DNA of 64,000 nucleotides, taken from NCBI RefSeq assembly GCF_001050195.2, contig NZ_DF967965.1, positions 1,443,150 to 1,507,149 of the forward strand. The letters are read 5' to 3'. A program made the position numbers and the translations under genes. The notes under the pieces were generated by a model. The model saw only the letters and a program-made list of their open reading frames with translations, had not been told where the DNA came from and searched no databases. Below, piece by piece: positions 5,735 to 24,599 of the stretch (its first letter is position 1; each line of letters opens with the position of its first letter). This DNA comes from Anaerolinea thermolimosa. GTDB lineage: Bacteria; Chloroflexota; Anaerolineae; Anaerolineales; Anaerolineaceae.

Positions 5735-6189
5735 TTTACGTCACGATTTCAGAAAATTTTTCATCCAGTGTGCCTGAAGAAGCAGTAATAACAGCGGCTC
5801 GAGCGGCTCTCCAGACCCGGCACGTAAAAGAAGATGAAGTAGATTTAACCATCGTTTTCGATGACGATGCAAGGATTCAAGAACTTAATCAACAATTTAG
5901 TGGTATTAATGCTCCAACCGATGTCTTATCGTTCCCTGCAAACGTAATTGACCCAGAAACAGGCCGACTCTACCTGGGTGATATTATTATTTCGGTTCCT
6001 CGAGCTGAAGTGCAGGCTGTAGAGGCCGGGTTAAAAGTAGAAGAAGAATTAACAATTCTTGTAGTTCATGGAGTTCTTCATCTGCTAGGATTTGATCATT
6101 ATACCGATGTGGATAAGATGAAAATGTGGGCTACACAGAAAAATATCCTGGCAGAATTAGGAATTGCCAGCGATAAACTCCCTGAATAG
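5731..6189 (+). CDS. ybeY: Endoribonuclease YbeY, rRNA maturation factor
   Basis: YbeY is a zinc-dependent endoribonuclease acting in 16S rRNA 3'-end maturation and ribosome quality control. The family zinc motif HGVLHLLGFDH is present at about residues 113-123, with three His ligands, and DVLSFP lies upstream at about 71. The length of 152 residues is normal. The start overlaps the preceding stop by 4 nt, so translation is coupled to the 7TM-HD gene, and dgkA follows 6 nt after the stop. This gene order is widely conserved, which strengthens the call. Confidence 0.95.
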   Translation: MIYVTISENFSSSVPEEAVITAARAALQTRHVKEDEVDLTIVFDDDARIQELNQQFSGINAPTDVLSFPANVIDPETGRLYLGDIIISVPRAEVQAVEAGLKVEEELTILVVHGVLHLLGFDHYTDVDKMKMWATQKNILAELGIASDKLPE

Positions 6190-6195
6190 GATTGT

Positions 6196-6576
6196 ATGTT
6201 TCCTTTTCTTCGTTCTCGGTTTAATGCCTTCCGGTATGCCTTTTCTGGATGGTGGTATGTTATTAAAACCCAAAGAAACGCCTGGATTCATGCCATCGCC
6301 TCCATGGGGGTCATTTCTATTAGCCTGTGGTTAAAACTTCCTCCTCGCGATTGGGCAGTGTTAATCCTTACCATCGCTTTAGTCTGGACTGCAGAATTTC
6401 TTAATACCGCGCTTGAAGCCGTTGTGGATCTTTCTATCCCCTCCCAACATCCTCTGGCACGGGTTGGAAAGGATGTAGGTGCTGCAGCGGTTTTGATCGC
6501 CGCATTATCATCTATCGTCATTGGAGTTTTGATTCTTGGCCTCCCTTTAATCAACCGACTCCGTTCTATATTCTAA
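6196..6576 (+). CDS. dgkA: Diacylglycerol/undecaprenol kinase family protein
   Basis: This 126-residue membrane protein has an amphipathic N-terminus and three membrane helices. It carries the DgkA active-site signature EFLNTALEAVVD at about residues 65-76. In Gram-positive-type lineages such enzymes mostly phosphorylate undecaprenol for cell-wall lipid carrier recycling; in Proteobacteria they phosphorylate diacylglycerol. The sequence does not settle the substrate. AGGA at about 6187 precedes the ATG at good spacing. It belongs to the yqeY to ybeY run. Confidence 0.88.
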   Translation: MFPFLRSRFNAFRYAFSGWWYVIKTQRNAWIHAIASMGVISISLWLKLPPRDWAVLILTIALVWTAEFLNTALEAVVDLSIPSQHPLARVGKDVGAAAVLIAALSSIVIGVLILGLPLINRLRSIF

Positions 6577-16068: not shown

Positions 16069-17595
16069 ATGGATTTCATTAATTTACTGGATACTTACCT
16101 TCGTGCTCGGTTTACTTTGATTATCCTGATCACTCACGAGGAAGAACGGGCGCTGTCTGCCGTCCTCAGCGCCTGCAATACTACTCAACGGCTTTGCTTG
16201 AGTTGGGATATTGCCGACCATTTTCAATGGGTCTCCGATGGCTCCTTCCCTATTCCAGTTGGACGTGACCCCCTCACTGCCCTGGAGCAAATGGAAAAAA
16301 TCGACCTTCCCCACCCCGTTGTTTTCATTCTGAAAGATTTCCATGATCTCTGGGGGAATCCCTCAATTCGGCGAAAACTCCGCACCCTTTCTCAACGGTT
16401 CAGGTATTCTCGGAAGACTCTCGTCATCATTACTCCCTCCAGTAAAATACCACCTGAATTGAAAGACGAAGCTGTAGTCCTGGATTATCCCTTGCCTGAT
16501 TCCCATGAACTGGCTCAGGTACTTACACGAATGACTCAATCTGCAGGGGTAAAAGTTTCACTCACTCCCCTTGGACAGGAAAAATTAATCCAGGCTGCCC
16601 TTGGCCTGACTGCCTCTCAGGCTCAGCGTGCTTTTGCTCGGGCAATCATACAGGATGGAGTGCTTGACGATCGTGCTATTGATCTGGTCACCGAAGAAAA
16701 AAGACAAATGATTCGTGAAAGTGAAGCACTGGAATTCTTCCCTGCGAATGAAACCATGGAAGATGTGGGTGGATTAAACGCTTTAAAAGAATGGCTACGC
16801 CTGCGAGAAACTGCCTTCACCCAGAAAGCCCGTGAGTACGGCTTGCCTGCTCCAAAAGGGATCGCCTTGATCGGCATTCCTGGTACTGGCAAAAGTCTTA
16901 CCGCTAAAATGATTGCCGGTTCATGGAAACTCCCTCTGTTACGTCTTGATGTCGGGGCCTTATTCGGTAGCCTTGTAGGGGAATCAGAGGAACGAACACG
17001 TCGGGCATTGCAATTGGCTCATACCATTGCTCCCTGTATCCTCTGGATTGATGAGATGGAAAAAGCCCTTGCTCATGGTGGATTGGATAGTGGAACCAGT
17101 ACCCGCGTCTTTGGTTCGATATTAACCTGGATGCAGGAAAAAACCTCACCTGTGTTCGTCGTCGCAACCGCCAATGATATTTCAAGCCTTCCACCTGAAC
17201 TCCTCCGCCGTGGCCGCTTTGATGAAATTTTTTTCCTGGATTTACCCTCACGCAAAGAGAGAGCCGAAATTTTCTCGGTTCACCTCAAAAAACGCAGGCG
17301 AATACCTGAAGATTATGATCTTGATCTTCTGGCCACTCATTCCGATGGCTTTGTAGGAGCAGAAATTGAACAGGCAGTCATCGACGCCATGTATATCGGA
17401 TTCAACGACCATGAACGTGAATTTACCACAGAAGATATTCTCTTTGCCCTTAAACGTCAGGTTCCTTTATCGGTCTCCCAAAGAGAGACCGTGCAATACC
17501 TTCGCAGTTGGCTGAACGAAGGAAGGGCTATTTCTGCTTCAGGCATTATCCTCGAACCATCTGAAGCTGAAACCAAAGGTATTCATCTATCATGA
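16069..17595 (+). CDS. Ycf46-like AAA+ ATPase
   Basis: The protein has 508 residues. The N-terminal 240 residues form a degenerate AAA-like or adaptor region ([13 protein letters not shown], about 85-97). The C-terminal half is a canonical AAA module. It shows Walker A GIPGTGKS (about 269), Walker [11 protein letters not shown] (about 325), sensor 1 VVATAND and the arginine-finger/sensor stretch [18 protein letters not shown]. No membrane segment or protease domain follows, so it is not FtsH. The overall plan matches the Ycf46 family of cyanobacteria and plastids. AAAGGTGG precedes the ATG. It opens a six-gene cassette with an Hsp70-like protein, DUF1257 and DUF2997, suggesting a remodelling or chaperone role. 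Confidence 0.85.
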
Positions 17596-17621
17596 ATTTC
17601 ACCCTGCATTAATAATAAAAA

Positions 17622-19205
17622 ATGAACGGTTACCTGGGAATTGACTTTGGTACCTCCAACACAGTTATAGCCCTCTGGAATCCAGATACTTCTGAAGCGA
17701 TCCCTCTCAAGATTTCAGAATACAGTTCTATGGTACCCGGAATTCATGGCGAAGTCCCGGTGATTCCATCGTTAATTCATTATGCGGAAGATCAGAGAAT
17801 ATGGATTGGACAACAAGTCCTCCTTCGTGGAATCGCTGACTCTCCACACACCTTTCGTTGGATGAAGCGTTATATCAGTCATCGAAGCCCCATGCGGATT
17901 CGTATCCACGACCGTGAAATTACCCCCTATCAGGCCGGAGCTGATTTCCTAAAGACTGTGCTTCTTTCAATCATCAACGAATACGAGCCGCGCGGAGAAG
18001 AAGTGGGGCTAAGTGTACCCGTGGAGTCGTTTGAGCATTACGAAAACTGGCTCGCTTCAATTGCGGAAAACGCAGGGATAAACCGCTTCCGCCTCATCGA
18101 TGAGCCTTCTGCTGCCGCCCTGGGATATGGAGCCCACATCCAACCGGGGAATATTTACCTCATTTTTGATTTTGGGGGAGGCACATTCCATGCCTCTGTT
18201 GTCTTGATTGAGGATGAAGACCGGGCTCATCATGGCCGCCGTTGCCGAGTGTTAGGAAAAGCCGGACGGGATATTGGGGGAGCCACTATTGATCAGTGGT
18301 TATTTCAGGATATTCTCAAGCGCCATAAGCTTGATGATTGGAACGATGAAATTCGCCAGATTAGCACAATTCTCTTGAATAAATGTCAGGTATTGAAAGA
18401 GACCCTTTCGATAGATAACGCTGCCCGTCTGGAACTCACATCTCCAGAACTATCAATTAGTGCTTCGTACACCCGCGAACAATTTGAAAACCTGCTTGAA
18501 AACCAGGATTTATTTACTGAAATCAACCGAACCGTTAGAGAGGCCTTAAATAAGGCTCTGGAACGTGGTTTCAGCGAAGATAACCTGCAAGCAGTCTTGC
18601 TGGTCGGTGGGAGCTGCCAGATACCCTGTGTGCAGCGTGTTTTTCGGCAGCTCTTTGGAAAAGACCGGGTATTTTACCACCACCCTTTGGATGCCGTCGC
18701 TAGGGGAACAGCCGCTTTTGCGGCAGGAGTAGATTTCTACGATCATATTCAACATGACTACGCCATACGCTATCTGAATACCCGGGCAGGAAAATATGAA
18801 TTCAGAGTCATTGTTCCTAAAGGGACACCATACCCAACAAAAACACCCGTGAGCCGGCTCACAATAAAGGCTACCCACCCCGGACAAAAATACCTGGGGA
18901 TTGCGATCTTTGAAATGAGTGATATGAAAACTCGATCCTCATCCAATTTTGAACTCGTTTTTGATATGGATGGTTCGGCTCGTATTGCTAACCTCACCCC
19001 CTTTGAGTTGGAGCAACGATCATCATTCTGGATGAATCAACAAAACCCAACCTTCCTTGTAGCAGATCCACCGGCTGAGCCAGGAGAACCCTGTTTTGAG
19101 GTAGAATTCAACATTGACTCAAATAAAAGGTTGGTCATTTCGGCTCGAGATCTTCGAACAGGCCAAATGATCTTGAAAGATGCGCTGGTAGTTCGTCTCT
19201 CTTGA
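17622..19205 (+). CDS. Hsp70-like (DnaK superfamily) protein
   Basis: This 527-residue protein starts with the Hsp70 phosphate-1 motif GYLGIDFGTSNTVIALW. It has the DEPSAAALGYG segment (about 160), the phosphate-2 motif IFDFGGGTFH (about 186) and the adenosine motif VLLVGGSCQIPCVQ (about 328). A beta-rich substrate-domain-like region follows (about 390-525). It is clearly shorter than DnaK (about 610-640 residues) and lacks the helical lid and acidic tail. It is therefore a specialised Hsp70 rather than housekeeping DnaK; no dnaJ or grpE is adjacent. The start lacks a Shine-Dalgarno sequence but is fixed by the domain. It overlaps the next open frame. Confidence 0.88.
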   Translation: MNGYLGIDFGTSNTVIALWNPDTSEAIPLKISEYSSMVPGIHGEVPVIPSLIHYAEDQRIWIGQQVLLRGIADSPHTFRWMKRYISHRSPMRIRIHDREITPYQAGADFLKTVLLSIINEYEPRGEEVGLSVPVESFEHYENWLASIAENAGINRFRLIDEPSAAALGYGAHIQPGNIYLIFDFGGGTFHASVVLIEDEDRAHHGRRCRVLGKAGRDIGGATIDQWLFQDILKRHKLDDWNDEIRQISTILLNKCQVLKETLSIDNAARLELTSPELSISASYTREQFENLLENQDLFTEINRTVREALNKALERGFSEDNLQAVLLVGGSCQIPCVQRVFRQLFGKDRVFYHHPLDAVARGTAAFAAGVDFYDHIQHDYAIRYLNTRAGKYEFRVIVPKGTPYPTKTPVSRLTIKATHPGQKYLGIAIFEMSDMKTRSSSNFELVFDMDGSARIANLTPFELEQRSSFWMNQQNPTFLVADPPAEPGEPCFEVEFNIDSNKRLVISARDLRTGQMILKDALVVRLS

Positions 19206-19216
19206 GGAGGACAGGA

Positions 19217-19597
19217 ATGTCTCACTTCAGTCGTATAAAAACCCAGCTCGCTGATAAGGATCTTCTGATTCAGGCCCTGAAAGCTCTGGGATTTACCCCT
19301 GAAGAAGGGGACTTACTCCTTCATGGATTTGGGGGACAGCATACGCCCGTTGAAATACTGGTAAAGCTTCCCCAGTCTTTTCCTATTGGCTTCCGGAAAA
19401 GCGGTGACTTCTTCGAGATTATTGCAGATTGGTCTGGTGTTCGGGGTGTTCAGGCCAAAGAGTTCACCCAAAGTCTCCTGCAGCGATATGCTTACCTGGC
19501 TACCAGACAAAAATTGGAAGCGCAAGGATTTACCCTTGTTGAGGAACAGATTGCCTCCACAGGTGAAATCCGGTTACTCCTTCGAAGAATGGTATAA
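19217..19597 (+). CDS. DUF1257 family protein (Ycf35-like)
   Basis: A 126-residue protein beginning MSHFSRIKTQ, the characteristic start of DUF1257/Ycf35 proteins, followed by the DLLIQALKALGF segment seen in the family. No function is established for the family, which occurs in cyanobacteria, plastids and scattered bacteria. GGAGG at 19206-19210, 6 nt from ATG 19217, fixes the start; the frame opens 5 codons earlier inside the Hsp70 stop region. A DUF2997 protein follows 15 nt later. I am confident of the family from the N-terminal signature and the context. Confidence 0.8.
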   Translation: MSHFSRIKTQLADKDLLIQALKALGFTPEEGDLLLHGFGGQHTPVEILVKLPQSFPIGFRKSGDFFEIIADWSGVRGVQAKEFTQSLLQRYAYLATRQKLEAQGFTLVEEQIASTGEIRLLLRRMV

Positions 19598-19612
19598 CCT
19601 GAGGAGCGCTAT

Positions 19613-19825
19613 ATGGAAATTCATGAAATATACGTCCAAATAAAACCCGATGGTCAGGTTGAAATTGCAGTCCAAGGGGTAAACGGGAGTGATTGCCTGG
19701 ACATTACCGCAGAACTTGAAGTAGCTCTTGGTGGAAATGTGGTGCTCAGAGAAATGAAAACCGAAGCCATTGAACCAACGACGCTCGATCATTCTCAGAT
19801 TGATCCTTTGAGGTCAGGTGGATAA
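19613..19825 (+). CDS. DUF2997 family small protein
   Basis: A 70-residue acidic protein with the pattern IYVQIKPDGQVEIAVQGVNG then CLDITAELEVALG, fitting DUF2997 (a small domain that commonly accompanies DUF1257). The shape suggests a beta hairpin followed by a helix, perhaps a binding partner or substrate of the radical SAM protein. GAGGAG lies 6 nt before the ATG. Its stop overlaps the following radical SAM start. Confidence 0.7.
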   Translation: MEIHEIYVQIKPDGQVEIAVQGVNGSDCLDITAELEVALGGNVVLREMKTEAIEPTTLDHSQIDPLRSGG

Positions 19826-20399
19826 TCTCGAAAAGGGGGGCGCCTTCCTTCGCCTGCATGGCATGTTACCTTCCAGCCAGGCTAATGGACCTGGATTGCG
19901 CTGGGTCCTATGGCTTCAGGGATGCAATCTCGCCTGTCCCGGTTGTTTCAACCCTGAAACTCATCCCTTTAACGCCGGCCAACGAATGGAAATCTCATCC
20001 CTGGCAAAATCCATCCTTGATGCTCAGGAACATATTGAGGGGATATCAATTAGTGGTGGCGAACCCTTTATCCAGGCCCAGGAACTTGCCGTATTCCTGG
20101 AAATGATTCGTCAGCAATCCCGGTTAAGCGTGTTAATTTTTACCGGTTATTCCTTGAATGAATTGGGTTCTATACCCTCAGCTTCTCGTGTGCTCCAATT
20201 GACCGATGTGCTCATTGCAGGAAGATATGTTCAAAGCCGACGCATCGCATCGGGATTAATCGGATCAGATAATAAAAAAATCCATCTCCTGACCAATCGT
20301 TATACTCGTGAAGATATTCTCGCCTCGTTTGAAGCCGAGGTACACATTCAAATCGATGGAGGTATCCTCTTGACGGGGATTGACCCACTCCAATGGTAG
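19818..20399 (+). CDS. 4Fe-4S single-cluster (radical SAM activase-like) protein
   Basis: A 193-residue protein related to NrdG and PflA activating enzymes. The cluster motif is CNLACPGC (C-x3-C-x2-C, about residues 34-41) within WLQGCNLACPGCFNPETHP. A SAM-binding-like GGEP motif follows at about 79 (ISGGEPFIQ). The spacing matches NrdG-type activases. The GTG start overlaps the DUF2997 gene and is preceded by GAGG; no nearby ATG precedes the cluster motif. Its stop overlaps the next gene by 7 nt. A glycyl radical substrate is not present in the window, so its target may be a protein of this cassette. That is inference. Confidence 0.82.
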   Translation: MDNLEKGGAFLRLHGMLPSSQANGPGLRWVLWLQGCNLACPGCFNPETHPFNAGQRMEISSLAKSILDAQEHIEGISISGGEPFIQAQELAVFLEMIRQQSRLSVLIFTGYSLNELGSIPSASRVLQLTDVLIAGRYVQSRRIASGLIGSDNKKIHLLTNRYTREDILASFEAEVHIQIDGGILLTGIDPLQW

Positions 20400-22651
20400 C
20401 AAAGCTCCTGCTTCCAATTGACATCGAAACCCTTCAAAAGCTGCTCGTTGATAAACCATCCCTGGATGATCTCCTCTCTATAGAGCAACGGGATTTCCTT
20501 ATCCAACTCGGCGTCATTTCTGCGCTACAGGAACTTGGCGATAAAAATGCCATTCAGATCTTGATTGAGACTGCCCGGCATCACTCTCACGCTCTCGTTC
20601 GCCGGGCCTCTCTTCTGGCTCTCCTCAACCTTGCCGGGAGCAAACTTCCCAATGCTATCGATGCAATCTATTACCTCAGTATTTTCGACCAATTCCTGGC
20701 GGCCAGACAGGCTATTATTGCCAATCAATGGCAACCTTCAAAACCTTTCTTAAAAACCCTCTTCGATTGGGTGATCGGGCTGGAAGAAAATGAACGCCCA
20801 TCTATAAACCTGGATGAACTTACAGAGATTTTTTTTGAGAAAGCTGACGCTCAATTACAGGAACGAATTTTATCGTTGGCCTCTGCAGTTAAAGATTATC
20901 AAAATTGGTCTCGTTTAGTTTTCTTGCTCCAGGTTCCACAACCAGAACAACTCGCTCAGGTTGTTGATCTTTTTCCATTCCTCAACCAAACCGAGCAAAA
21001 TATCGCCCGATCTCGTTTGGCCTTACTGGCACATTCCTTACTACCAGCGCAAGAGGCATTATGCCAGTTGTTCTTACGGTTTGACGACCAGCTCTCCGGG
21101 ACTCTGGCACGGGAAAATGGCTATCTCCCTTCCAATCCCAGCGACCGGGCGCTGTTCTTCTTCCTTTGTGGAGACTGGAACCGTTATAACCAGATCGATT
21201 TTAACCGTTCTTTACTCCTTTCGGCTTATATATCTGGTGAAAAAAACCTTCGTCGACGTCTTATTACTTTTAGCCGCCAAACTGGTCAGGTAGATTGGCT
21301 CCAGGCTATCGAGCACTCGTCTGAAACCCGTTTAATAGAGGATCTTTCGAGCTCCGATTGGGAGATTGCCATCTCCCGGCTTAACCAGACAGCCCGGTAT
21401 GTTGAACTCTGGCAACTGGCTCAGGCTGCCCCCCCTTTTTGGAGCGCCCGCATCTTGACCCTGCTTTCAGATGCCGGCTGGTTCCCTGAAGAGACCTTTG
21501 AAAAAGAAAGTTTCCTTTCTCTGGCATCCCTGGCGGCCGCCTGTAAAAATCTCCCCTTGGAAATGCGCAGTGTGATGCAAAATCAATTTTCCGAGGGCTC
21601 TATAATCAGTCTGGCCATCGATCCTCAACAAAAGCACCTGGCCATCGGATCGGATAAACAATCAATCGCAATCTGGCCTATTCCTGATAGATGCCCCCAA
21701 TTAACCATTCAGGGGCCAGCTTCTATTACTCGCTCTCTTTTATTTAGCCTGGATGGAGACCTTCTGGTAGCGGCCAATGGAGATCAGCAAATTCGTATTT
21801 ACCGCCTGAAAGATGGTCAAATGCTAAAAGCCCTGACCGGCCATCAAGGGTTGATTAAGCAGCTTGCCCTCACTCCCGACAACCGATCTTTACTGAGTGT
21901 TGGCTTTGATGGAACCATTCGCTTCTGGCGATTTCCTTTAGGTATAGAATTTAATCGTATTCAATCACTAATCCACGAACTGTTCGGTATTTCAGTGCTG
22001 GGAAAAAGGAAATGGATCGCTGTAGGCGGGGCCAGTGAAGAAGTATTCGTCTGGAGCTTCCCTGAAGGCACCCTCGTTCGAACCATCCCGGCATCCAACC
22101 AGGGCACACTCCATATCGCCACCACAGCCAACTCTGATTTACTTGCCATTGCCGGGCGCGATCACAGCCTTTCCATCTGGAATGCTGCCAGCGGGAACAA
22201 GATTGCGCAATTTCCAACCCATCCTTCTCCGGTAATAGGTATAGCCCTTCATCCTGAAGCTCCAATCATTTTTTGCGGAAATCGAGATGGAACTATCCGA
22301 TTAGGAGACCTGAACACAGGAACATGGCTCCATACCTTCAATCCTCATAAGTCCTCCCTGAGTGCAATGGCCTTATCAAAGAACGGTAATTTTCTCGCCA
22401 TGGCCTACGAAGATGGTGCTGTTTATGGGTGGGATTGCACTACCTTTCTTTGGGCATTCACTCCACGCGTCCCAGGGTTCCTGCTCCCTATCTCTGAAGT
22501 AGAAAATAAAATCACTTCAGCCGAACAGGGCTCTGCCGAAAAGGCCTGGCTTCATTACATTTCTGCATTATGGAAGTTTTCAGCACGCTTTGAAATTGGC
22601 GTCGGCGATCCCACAATCATCGACATCGGAGAATTTGATATCGAATTATGA
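20393..22651 (+). CDS. HEAT-repeat / WD40-propeller protein
   Basis: A 752-residue, probably cytoplasmic scaffold. The first 370 residues or so are helical repeats resembling HEAT/armadillo units (ISALQELGDKNAIQILIETA and ALVRRASLLALLNLAG). From about residue 400, at least seven WD40-type blades follow, such as SIISLAIDPQQKHLAIGSD, LTPDNRSLLSVGFDGTIRFW and IAGRDHSLSIW. Such a propeller would serve protein-protein contact. The gene overlaps the radical SAM stop and is followed by an MFS gene whose ATG overlaps its own stop. It looks like the last member of the AAA/Hsp70/DUF1257 cassette. Confidence 0.82.
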   Translation: MVAKLLLPIDIETLQKLLVDKPSLDDLLSIEQRDFLIQLGVISALQELGDKNAIQILIETARHHSHALVRRASLLALLNLAGSKLPNAIDAIYYLSIFDQFLAARQAIIANQWQPSKPFLKTLFDWVIGLEENERPSINLDELTEIFFEKADAQLQERILSLASAVKDYQNWSRLVFLLQVPQPEQLAQVVDLFPFLNQTEQNIARSRLALLAHSLLPAQEALCQLFLRFDDQLSGTLARENGYLPSNPSDRALFFFLCGDWNRYNQIDFNRSLLLSAYISGEKNLRRRLITFSRQTGQVDWLQAIEHSSETRLIEDLSSSDWEIAISRLNQTARYVELWQLAQAAPPFWSARILTLLSDAGWFPEETFEKESFLSLASLAAACKNLPLEMRSVMQNQFSEGSIISLAIDPQQKHLAIGSDKQSIAIWPIPDRCPQLTIQGPASITRSLLFSLDGDLLVAANGDQQIRIYRLKDGQMLKALTGHQGLIKQLALTPDNRSLLSVGFDGTIRFWRFPLGIEFNRIQSLIHELFGISVLGKRKWIAVGGASEEVFVWSFPEGTLVRTIPASNQGTLHIATTANSDLLAIAGRDHSLSIWNAASGNKIAQFPTHPSPVIGIALHPEAPIIFCGNRDGTIRLGDLNTGTWLHTFNPHKSSLSAMALSKNGNFLAMAYEDGAVYGWDCTTFLWAFTPRVPGFLLPISEVENKITSAEQGSAEKAWLHYISALWKFSARFEIGVGDPTIIDIGEFDIEL

Positions 22652-23993: not shown

Positions 23994-24464
23994 ATGCCCG
24001 TGAAAAAGAAAAATAATCAAGTATCAGTTCCTTTCCTTTTAATTTTCGGCGGTTTGGTTTTATTATCGATTGGCCTTATCTTCCTGGCATTGAATGCACC
24101 AACTACCAATGCCTCACAAGGGGGCACACTCGATATCCCTTTTCCCCAAATCGCTCGGGTTTCTCTCGCGGACGCGAAGTCAGCCTATGATAAGAACATG
24201 GCCATCTTTATTGACGTCCGTGACTCGGGCTCTTATGCAGCCAGTCATATCGCCAATGCACTCAACATCCCCCTCACTGAATTAGAAGGTCGGTTGGCCG
24301 AAATACCCAGGGATCGGTGGATAATCACCTACTGCACCTGACCGGCAGAAAATAGTAGTGCCCGTGCGGCAGACATACTTCTCTCCCAAGGATATACACA
24401 AGTCAACCCTCTCCAGGGCGGTTTTCAGGCCTGGATTAATGCAGGTTACCCTGTAGAGCCCTGA
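23994..24464 (+). CDS. Membrane-anchored rhodanese with in-frame TGA (candidate selenoprotein)
   Basis: Conventional reading stops at TGA 24339-24341 after 115 residues, in the middle of the active-site loop. The same frame then runs on to TGA 24462-24464 and completes a rhodanese domain. The composite of 156 residues has an N-terminal membrane helix (about 13-35), IDVRDSGSY, HIANALNIPL, then TYCT-U-PAENSSARAA, and finally LQGGFQAWINAGYPVEP. Family members usually read YCxCPxExxSAR here, so the TGA stands where a Cys is expected, at codon 116. A short hairpin sits downstream at SECIS-like distance. The alternatives are a pseudogene or a single-base error. The domain faces outward. AAAGG precedes the start. 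Confidence 0.75.
24342..24379 (+). promoter_or_regulatory. Candidate bacterial SECIS hairpin
   Basis: After the TGA, TGCC (24359-24362) pairs with GGCA (24368-24371) around the loop CGTGC, which has G at its second position. AGT/ACT (24354-24356 with 24377-24379) can extend the stem past an internal loop. The apical loop begins 21 nt after the TGA. This fits what I recall of bacterial SECIS rules (loop 16-37 nt from UGA, G among the first two loop bases). The stem is short, so support is moderate. Confidence 0.45.
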
Positions 24465-24470
24465 TCCTTC

Positions 24471-24599
24471 CTATAGATATTTTTTCAGAGAGCCACCTGC
24501 TTCCAACCTGAAGGTGGCTCCATTTACATTCTTCCTTACATACACGCCGTCTCGCAAGGTATGACCACCCTTCGCCACAACAACGTGATTTTTAGCCAT
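24471..24599 (-). CDS. Possible 42-residue basic small protein
   Basis: A minus-strand frame from ATG 24599 to TAG 24471-24473 encodes MAKNHVVVAKGGHTLRDGVY and 22 more residues, ending GGSLKKYL. The composition is basic and the pattern looks like a small beta-rich domain. No clear ribosome-binding site is seen. It fills most of the gap between the rhodanese and the epimerase genes and overlaps a hairpin that could instead be a plus-strand terminator. Confidence 0.35.
   Translation of the reverse strand: MAKNHVVVAKGGHTLRDGVYVRKNVNGATFRLEAGGSLKKYL
24490..24520 (+). terminator. Hairpin downstream of the rhodanese gene
   Basis: GAGCCACCT (24490-24498) and AGGTGGCTC (24512-24520) form a perfect 9-bp stem with a 13-nt loop. 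The following bases are T-rich but lack an uninterrupted T run. It lies 25 nt after the final stop of the rhodanese frame, which suggests that the longer frame is the true transcription unit. Confidence 0.5.

Follow-up and report, generated by a model that had tools for sequence, protein, structure and literature searches.

The gene at positions 23994-24464 (+ strand) of the analyzed stretch of Anaerolinea thermolimosa DNA (64 kb, in the following the window) carries a TGA within its frame, which raises the question of whether this codon terminates translation or is read as selenocysteine (Sec). The frame starts with an ATG at 23994 and ends with a TGA at 24462-24464; the only internal TGA is located at 24339-24341 (+), corresponds to codon 116 and is followed by 40 sense codons up to the final stop. 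Read through, the frame encodes a putative membrane-anchored rhodanese selenoprotein of 156 aa, in which residue 116 is Sec and the active-site loop reads ITYCTUPAENSSARAA, i.e. C114-T-U116-P (YCTUP). Ordinary ORF calling would stop this protein at residue 115, within the active site.

A preliminary description of the locus had stated that the TGA interrupts a rhodanese with a single transmembrane segment where the second Cys of the YCxCP loop is expected, and that the frame stays open for 40 more codons with C-terminal rhodanese features. These statements were confirmed. The read-through protein matched the Pfam family PF00581 (Rhodanese) over residues 59-149 (24168-24440, +) with 58.4 bits (cut-off 22.2), a range that includes the part behind the TGA. 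The AlphaFold2 model (16 sequences in the input alignment) had a mean pLDDT of 88, and its best matches among solved structures in a Foldseek search were rhodanese domains, with 3tp9_A on top (E 1.3e-10). A single predicted membrane helix at residues 12-33 (24027-24092, +), modeled with ends of lower confidence, follows a lysine-rich N-terminus. From the sequence we infer its role as a membrane anchor as well as its orientation, which would presumably place the rhodanese domain outside the cytoplasm. Lipoprotein-like starts replace the N-terminal helix in some relatives (read by eye). At the position of the TGA, 76 homologs from other phyla have Cys and read YCTCP, the motif that the scan for them required.

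All four components of the Sec machinery that the preliminary description had suggested looking for were found in the genome to which the window belongs (G000; 4.17 Mb, 6 contigs, 99.99% complete, 4.69% contaminated), so that a lack of machinery does not count against Sec. These were tRNA-Sec (75.4 bits, cut-off 47; called tRNA-SeC with anticodon tca by ARAGORN), SelA (551 bits, cut-off 268), SelB (319 bits, cut-off 242) and SelD (350 bits, cut-off 125). Within the window, neither a tRNA nor a match to Rfam at gathering scores was found. The SelD gene (L087, G000:C1:2315532-2316464) contains an in-frame TGA, and SelD is therefore probably a selenoprotein too. A simple change of the genetic code was rejected, as TGA serves as an ordinary stop in 19 of the 47 other ORFs considered in the window (53 ORFs of at least 140 aa minus six overlapping ones) and also ends the rhodanese gene itself. 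Another candidate for an in-frame TGA in the window (6102-6572, minus strand) matched no Pfam family and was dropped.

To see how the sequence behind the TGA evolves, the gene was compared to its counterpart in the sister genome G001. The 120 nt after the TGA showed 9, 6 and 27 differences at the first, second and third codon position, very similar to the 120 nt before it (11, 6 and 27), while the differences were evenly spread (27, 26 and 25) over the 120 nt past the second stop. Identical residues numbered 30 of 40 before the TGA, 30 after it and 5 past the second stop. The remaining pairings of the three same-genus genes gave a similar pattern, and over all pairs 27-30 of 40 residues were identical after the TGA versus 2-5 of 40 past the second stop. 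By this comparison, the 40 codons downstream of the TGA are evolving as coding sequence. The openness of the frame alone proves little, since a 40-codon open frame has a chance of 12% at this base composition. That the TGA is a true stop, leaving a truncated protein of 115 residues or a pseudogene with the downstream frame as a relic, would agree with this chance and with the ordinary use of TGA as a stop in the window, but is extremely unlikely in view of the third-position-biased divergence, the drop in identity past the second stop, the TGA kept in at least 60 genomes (see below) and the C-terminal half of the rhodanese, which still matches the profile.

We then followed codon 116 through a set of 61 genomes of relatives, the own genome included. 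Some rhodanese match was present in 59 of them. The 19 best matches, from 16 genomes, contained exactly one TGA each, and in 19/19 this was the same codon. Matches ranked below these 19 had no TGA, and those that were read were of the classical CRSGNRS kind. The alignment of homologs at codon 116 that had been proposed for checking the locus thus gave TGA in the closest homologs and Cys in those from other phyla. Another counter-argument raised in advance, a true stop with decayed downstream sequence in sister genomes, did not apply either: two of the four sister genomes of the genus (G001 and G003) have the TGA form and kept the TGA as well as the conserved sequence behind it. No TGA form was found in the sister genomes G002 and G004, which are 84% and 61% complete. 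Cys114 (24333-24335, +), which occupies the canonical position of the catalytic Cys in rhodaneses, belongs to a YC pair that is invariant in alignment A2; six relatives described below have TGA there.

The occurrence of the TGA form was linked to that of the Sec machinery. tRNA-Sec was present in 16/16 genomes with the TGA form versus 43/61 overall (Fisher p 0.0013), and SelB in 16/16 versus 47/61 overall (Fisher p 0.0074). The gene is patchy: of the 45 relatives' genomes that lack the TGA form, 27 nevertheless carry tRNA-Sec. When 400 genomes of the phylum were searched with a profile and the loci extracted, the TGA form of the loop appeared in at least 49 genomes, and both sets combined gave at least 60 genomes (49 and 16, five of them shared). 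Among the matches listed, 43/49 TGA-form genomes had tRNA-Sec versus 262/351 of the others, which is a weak contrast without a completeness filter (p 0.028). The TGA-form genomes lacking it (G186, G353, G373, G198, G083 and G178) are all less than 90% complete, and among those of the at least 49 TGA-form genomes with a completeness of ≥90%, tRNA-Sec was present in 35/35. Restricting the set to genomes that are ≥90% complete and ≤5% contaminated resulted in 29/29 for the TGA form, again counted from the list of at least 49, versus 223/284 overall (p 0.0006). Judged from the assembled genomes, a sequencing error was rejected as an unreasonable explanation for the same codon being TGA in at least 60 genomes. 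Among plasmids, only distant rhodaneses were found (359 records, each below 60% identity).

The preliminary description had also pointed to a small hairpin with G in the loop at a SECIS-like distance, and this hairpin was present. It consists of a 4-bp stem (24359-24362 with 24368-24371; whole element 24359-24371, +) and the 5-nt loop CGTGC (24363-24367), with G at the second loop position. Its foot is 17 nt and the start of its loop 21 nt away from the TGA. The bSECIS model as outlined in PMC13188914 calls for 4-16 bp in the upper stem, a loop of 3-9 nt with G among its first two bases, a spacing of 16-37 nt between UGA and loop, and a minimum free energy of ≤-7.5 kcal/mol. The hairpin of the window fits this geometry with its 5-nt loop, 4-bp stem, G at the second position and distance of 21 nt, and its energy lies below the limit when 52 nt are folded (-9.0 kcal/mol) and above it for 25 nt (-5.3 kcal/mol). 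Five relatives reached -7.9 to -11.4 kcal/mol over 25 nt. The 52-nt fold of the window sequence alone was unremarkable (z -0.02), and single-sequence folding was therefore discarded as evidence for the hairpin; a comparison of homologs was used instead.

For this comparison, 66 distinct Sec sequences were available, obtained from 73 loci after removal of seven that were identical over 90-nt windows; all have the conserved TGA. In these sequences, the UGA is followed by a stem with a maximum of five pairs and by a loop of five bases, which starts 21 nt past the UGA and contains two invariant G residues. The outermost pair was formed in 64/66 Sec sequences and is G-G in the window gene (24358/24372). 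Over 63 distinct rows, 98.7% of 315 cells paired, while slid versions of the hairpin reached only 20 to 60% pairing. Compensatory changes occurred at 5/5 pairs in 13 cells, compared to means of 0.8 and 0.9 after shuffling. None of 500 shuffles, which ignore relatedness, reached any of the five measures. The gene L190 illustrates the constraint: one stem pair is changed on both sides and yet kept, by exchanges of Ala to Val and Ala to Thr relative to the consensus. Two of the pairs lie at third codon positions. They were formed in 65/66 and 66/66 Sec genes versus 28/76 and 22/76 of the Cys homologs, a control from other phyla with different residues around the stem (codon 124 is mostly Lys). 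Shuffled columns at these two pairs still paired in about 60 and 61 of 66 sequences. Most of the pairing is therefore explained by the composition of the columns, and it is the 13 compensated cells, together with the Cys control, that carry the signal. Support for the predicted SECIS-type hairpin comes solely from the comparison of homologs, which bore it out.

A hairpin terminator had been placed after the second stop, and this claim was only partly borne out. The sequence there (24490-24520, +) does contain a perfect inverted repeat, with arms of 9 bp and a loop of 13 nt, that may act as a terminator, but it is missing from the list of the terminator scan, for which loops of 3-8 nt and a T-rich tail were required.

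Translation past UGA116 could in principle also be due to programmed read-through by a near-cognate tRNA that inserts Trp, Cys or another residue and no Sec. The identity of the inserted residue is not deducible from sequence alone, which leaves some room for this explanation. We nevertheless regard it as very unlikely, because tRNA-Sec accompanies the TGA form in 35/35 of the more complete genomes of the phylum and in 16/16 of the nearer ones, homologs elsewhere have Cys at the place of codon 116, and the covarying hairpin with its two invariant loop G residues lies at SECIS distance and is not kept in the Cys homologs. Judged by sequence comparison, UGA116 is, with high probability, decoded as selenocysteine, and the gene would then code for a selenoprotein, as had been proposed. 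This reading is favored because an in-frame UGA faces the Cys of homologs, has conserved sequence on both sides and occurs together with the Sec machinery; the presence of the TGA in many genomes and the covarying hairpin add to it. SelB and tRNA-Sec would decode UGA116, directed by the small hairpin with its loop 21 nt downstream.

In 6 of the 66 Sec sequences, TGA was found at both active-site positions (YUTUP or YUAUP; hereafter UxU), so that the canonical catalytic Cys is also replaced. These are L189 (G186), L190 (G147, with YUTUP), L192 (G323), L194 (G162), L202 (G210) and L203 (G264). The hairpin was kept in 6/6 UxU genes; its loop lies 27 nt behind the first UGA and 21 nt behind the second, and both distances are within the 16-37 nt given in PMC13188914. 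tRNA-Sec was detected in 5/6 UxU genomes, the exception being G186, which is 82% complete. A tree of 93 domains and 112 columns, which includes 13 of the 76 Cys loci and has many open forks, was used solely to count changes of the UxU label, i.e. gains or losses. The label required three changes, at least two of them by well-supported branches. Table 1 of the catalog in PMC13188914 does not list a UxU rhodanese. A literature search, largely of freely accessible journal articles, returned no paper combining UxU, selenoprotein and rhodanese. We consider it probable that these relatives contain two Sec one residue apart, the first at the catalytic position, encoded by UGAs 6 nt apart with one hairpin. 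They may have arisen repeatedly from the CxU form, which would result in a series of CxC, CxU and UxU and in a possible diselenide rhodanese. The UxU relatives pose the testable question of which role a second Sec has in a rhodanese site, and also ask how one SECIS serves two UGAs one codon apart.

What the protein does can be addressed less firmly. Cys114 occupies the position at which rhodaneses form a persulfide, as is established for the family. In our model, Cys114 would take up sulfane sulfur as a persulfide or become oxidized, and U116 would resolve it through a Cys-Sec bond or take over the sulfur. The product would be an extracytoplasmic sulfurtransferase or a persulfide/disulfide reductase and would not work in the manner of the classical CRxGxR rhodaneses. 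That the six relatives have Sec in place of Cys114 fits such a catalytic pair. We propose this sulfur-transfer function tentatively, as a reading that is plausible but short of probable, and the catalytic role is likewise putative.

A different function, compatible with Sec at residue 116, would be metal or thiol homeostasis outside the membrane, e.g. of copper together with efflux pumps, with the rhodanese fold as a redox or metal-binding scaffold. An ORF resembling a P-type ATPase adjoined the gene in 7 of 66 loci, which is a lower bound, as many loci had flanks of only 500 nt; at the one locus tested (L255), the ATPase was confirmed by Pfam, with HMA domains. In addition, one copy in G047 is located among genes for SCO1, PCu(A)C, a cupredoxin and a multicopper oxidase. 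Other neighbors, however, were found in the branch of the window gene and in further branches, including an MFS transporter and oligopeptidase-like and response-regulator-like ORFs. Since the neighbors vary by branch, the link to copper belongs to some lineages only, and we judge this role to be rather unlikely as the main function of the selenoprotein. G000 and G003 share the gene order radical-SAM, WD40-repeat, MFS, Sec rhodanese, epimerase, an unknown gene and HtpG (MFS, epimerase and HtpG of G003 assigned by eye), with which the ORFs of G001 agree over the part that they cover.

Upstream of the gene, the window holds a run of AAA ATPase, Hsp70-like, DUF1257, radical-SAM and WD40-repeat genes (16069-22651). 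The Sec rhodanese of G034 (L254) is also flanked by Hsp70-like, DUF1257 and radical-SAM genes, the last recognized by eye. In G047 (L170) and G113 (L168), the Sec rhodanese and its surrounding 3.46 kb are identical, and G177 (L169) shows 98.7% identity. G113 and G177 belong to another genus than G047, so the shared region spans two genera, which looks like recent transfer or contamination.

Other variants of the active site were observed within the phylum. A separate rhodanese type has the in-frame TGA five residues past the canonical Cys: L226:504-839 (+; YCTGATUGSSY), L233:498-848 (-; YCSGSTUGESY) and L241:483-758 (-; YCIGKTUGESY). This type is perhaps form 1 (UxxS) of the catalog in PMC13188914. 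In L235:483-758 (-), the only TGA takes the position of the canonical catalytic Cys (YUNMQHRGSS), where the related L225 has Cys. L205:483-878 (-) joins, within the same reading frame, a classical CRSG domain to a Sec rhodanese domain behind it (by eye). The active-site Cys is replaced (YGDA or YGDS) in L207, L208, L210, L216, L218, L220, L221, L224, L228, L242, L243, L247 and L249. All of these domains are from one family of the phylum (f36), and L213 of the same family reads YTDQ. Because the active-site Cys was lost from such related domains (AYGDA type), a sulfurtransferase function need not apply to every relative.

That rhodanese-like proteins are among the bacterial selenoprotein families, as the preliminary description had stated, agrees with the literature, in which the CxU kind is already cataloged. 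Table 1 of PMC13188914 (119 families) contains five rhodanese selenoprotein forms, of which form 3 is CxU (NF041203), and PMC9312934 likewise sets apart a CxU form. The tables of PMC1088965, PMC2398784 and PMC5029168 name rhodanese-related selenoproteins and give neither the CxU motif nor Chloroflexi for them, and the sole rhodanese passage found in PMC1794560 is a reference. With a rhodanese domain and Sec in a C-x-U motif, the window protein corresponds to form 3 as described there. NF041203 (rhodanese_LYCAU) was also its best curated model, but the score of 76.8 bits was below the cut-off of 115. The same model was the best family match for five relatives scanned, all below 115. Ten further proteins were all (10/10) under this cut-off; NF041203 was the best match for eight of them (three Cys homologs, three UxU proteins, L231 and L205) and not for L226 and L235. 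The curated model of the nearest family thus does not reach the window protein. We concluded that the CxU kind is known and that the window gene represents a separate branch of it, which falls outside the family if the curated model is applied strictly.

Compared to form 3, the window protein has the fold and the position of Sec two residues after the canonical Cys in common; it differs by its predicted membrane anchor and by YCTUP instead of LYCAU. Its relatives include UxU, whereas the entry in Table 1 of PMC13188914 lists one Sec in CxU. TsoB (NF045694), a rhodanese/DsbD fusion-like protein with UxxxxU in the same catalog, shares the Sec-containing rhodanese domain and, with the UxU relatives, the number of two Sec. 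It is a fusion protein with another Sec spacing, and the window protein reached only 32 bits against its cut-off of 805. The YCTCP rhodaneses (76 loci, mostly from Acidobacteriota) have the same loop with a Cys codon in place of Sec; they did not keep the third-position hairpin pairs, and some lie behind other membrane segments (by eye). The scan for them back-translated a Cys motif, so that it could find only Cys homologs and is silent on Sec in those phyla; its loci served as the control. Classical single-domain rhodaneses such as GlpE, PspE and YgaP share the PF00581 fold and the place of the first Cys, but have a CxxGxR-type loop with one catalytic Cys and no known Sec. A paralog of this type with the loop CRSGNRS is encoded in the same genome as the window gene (G000:C2, L244). 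The gene and its relatives offer a well-sampled case of a putative RNA hairpin within a coding region, backed by compensatory changes, third-position pairs and a Cys control in 66 distinct sequences and at least 60 genomes.
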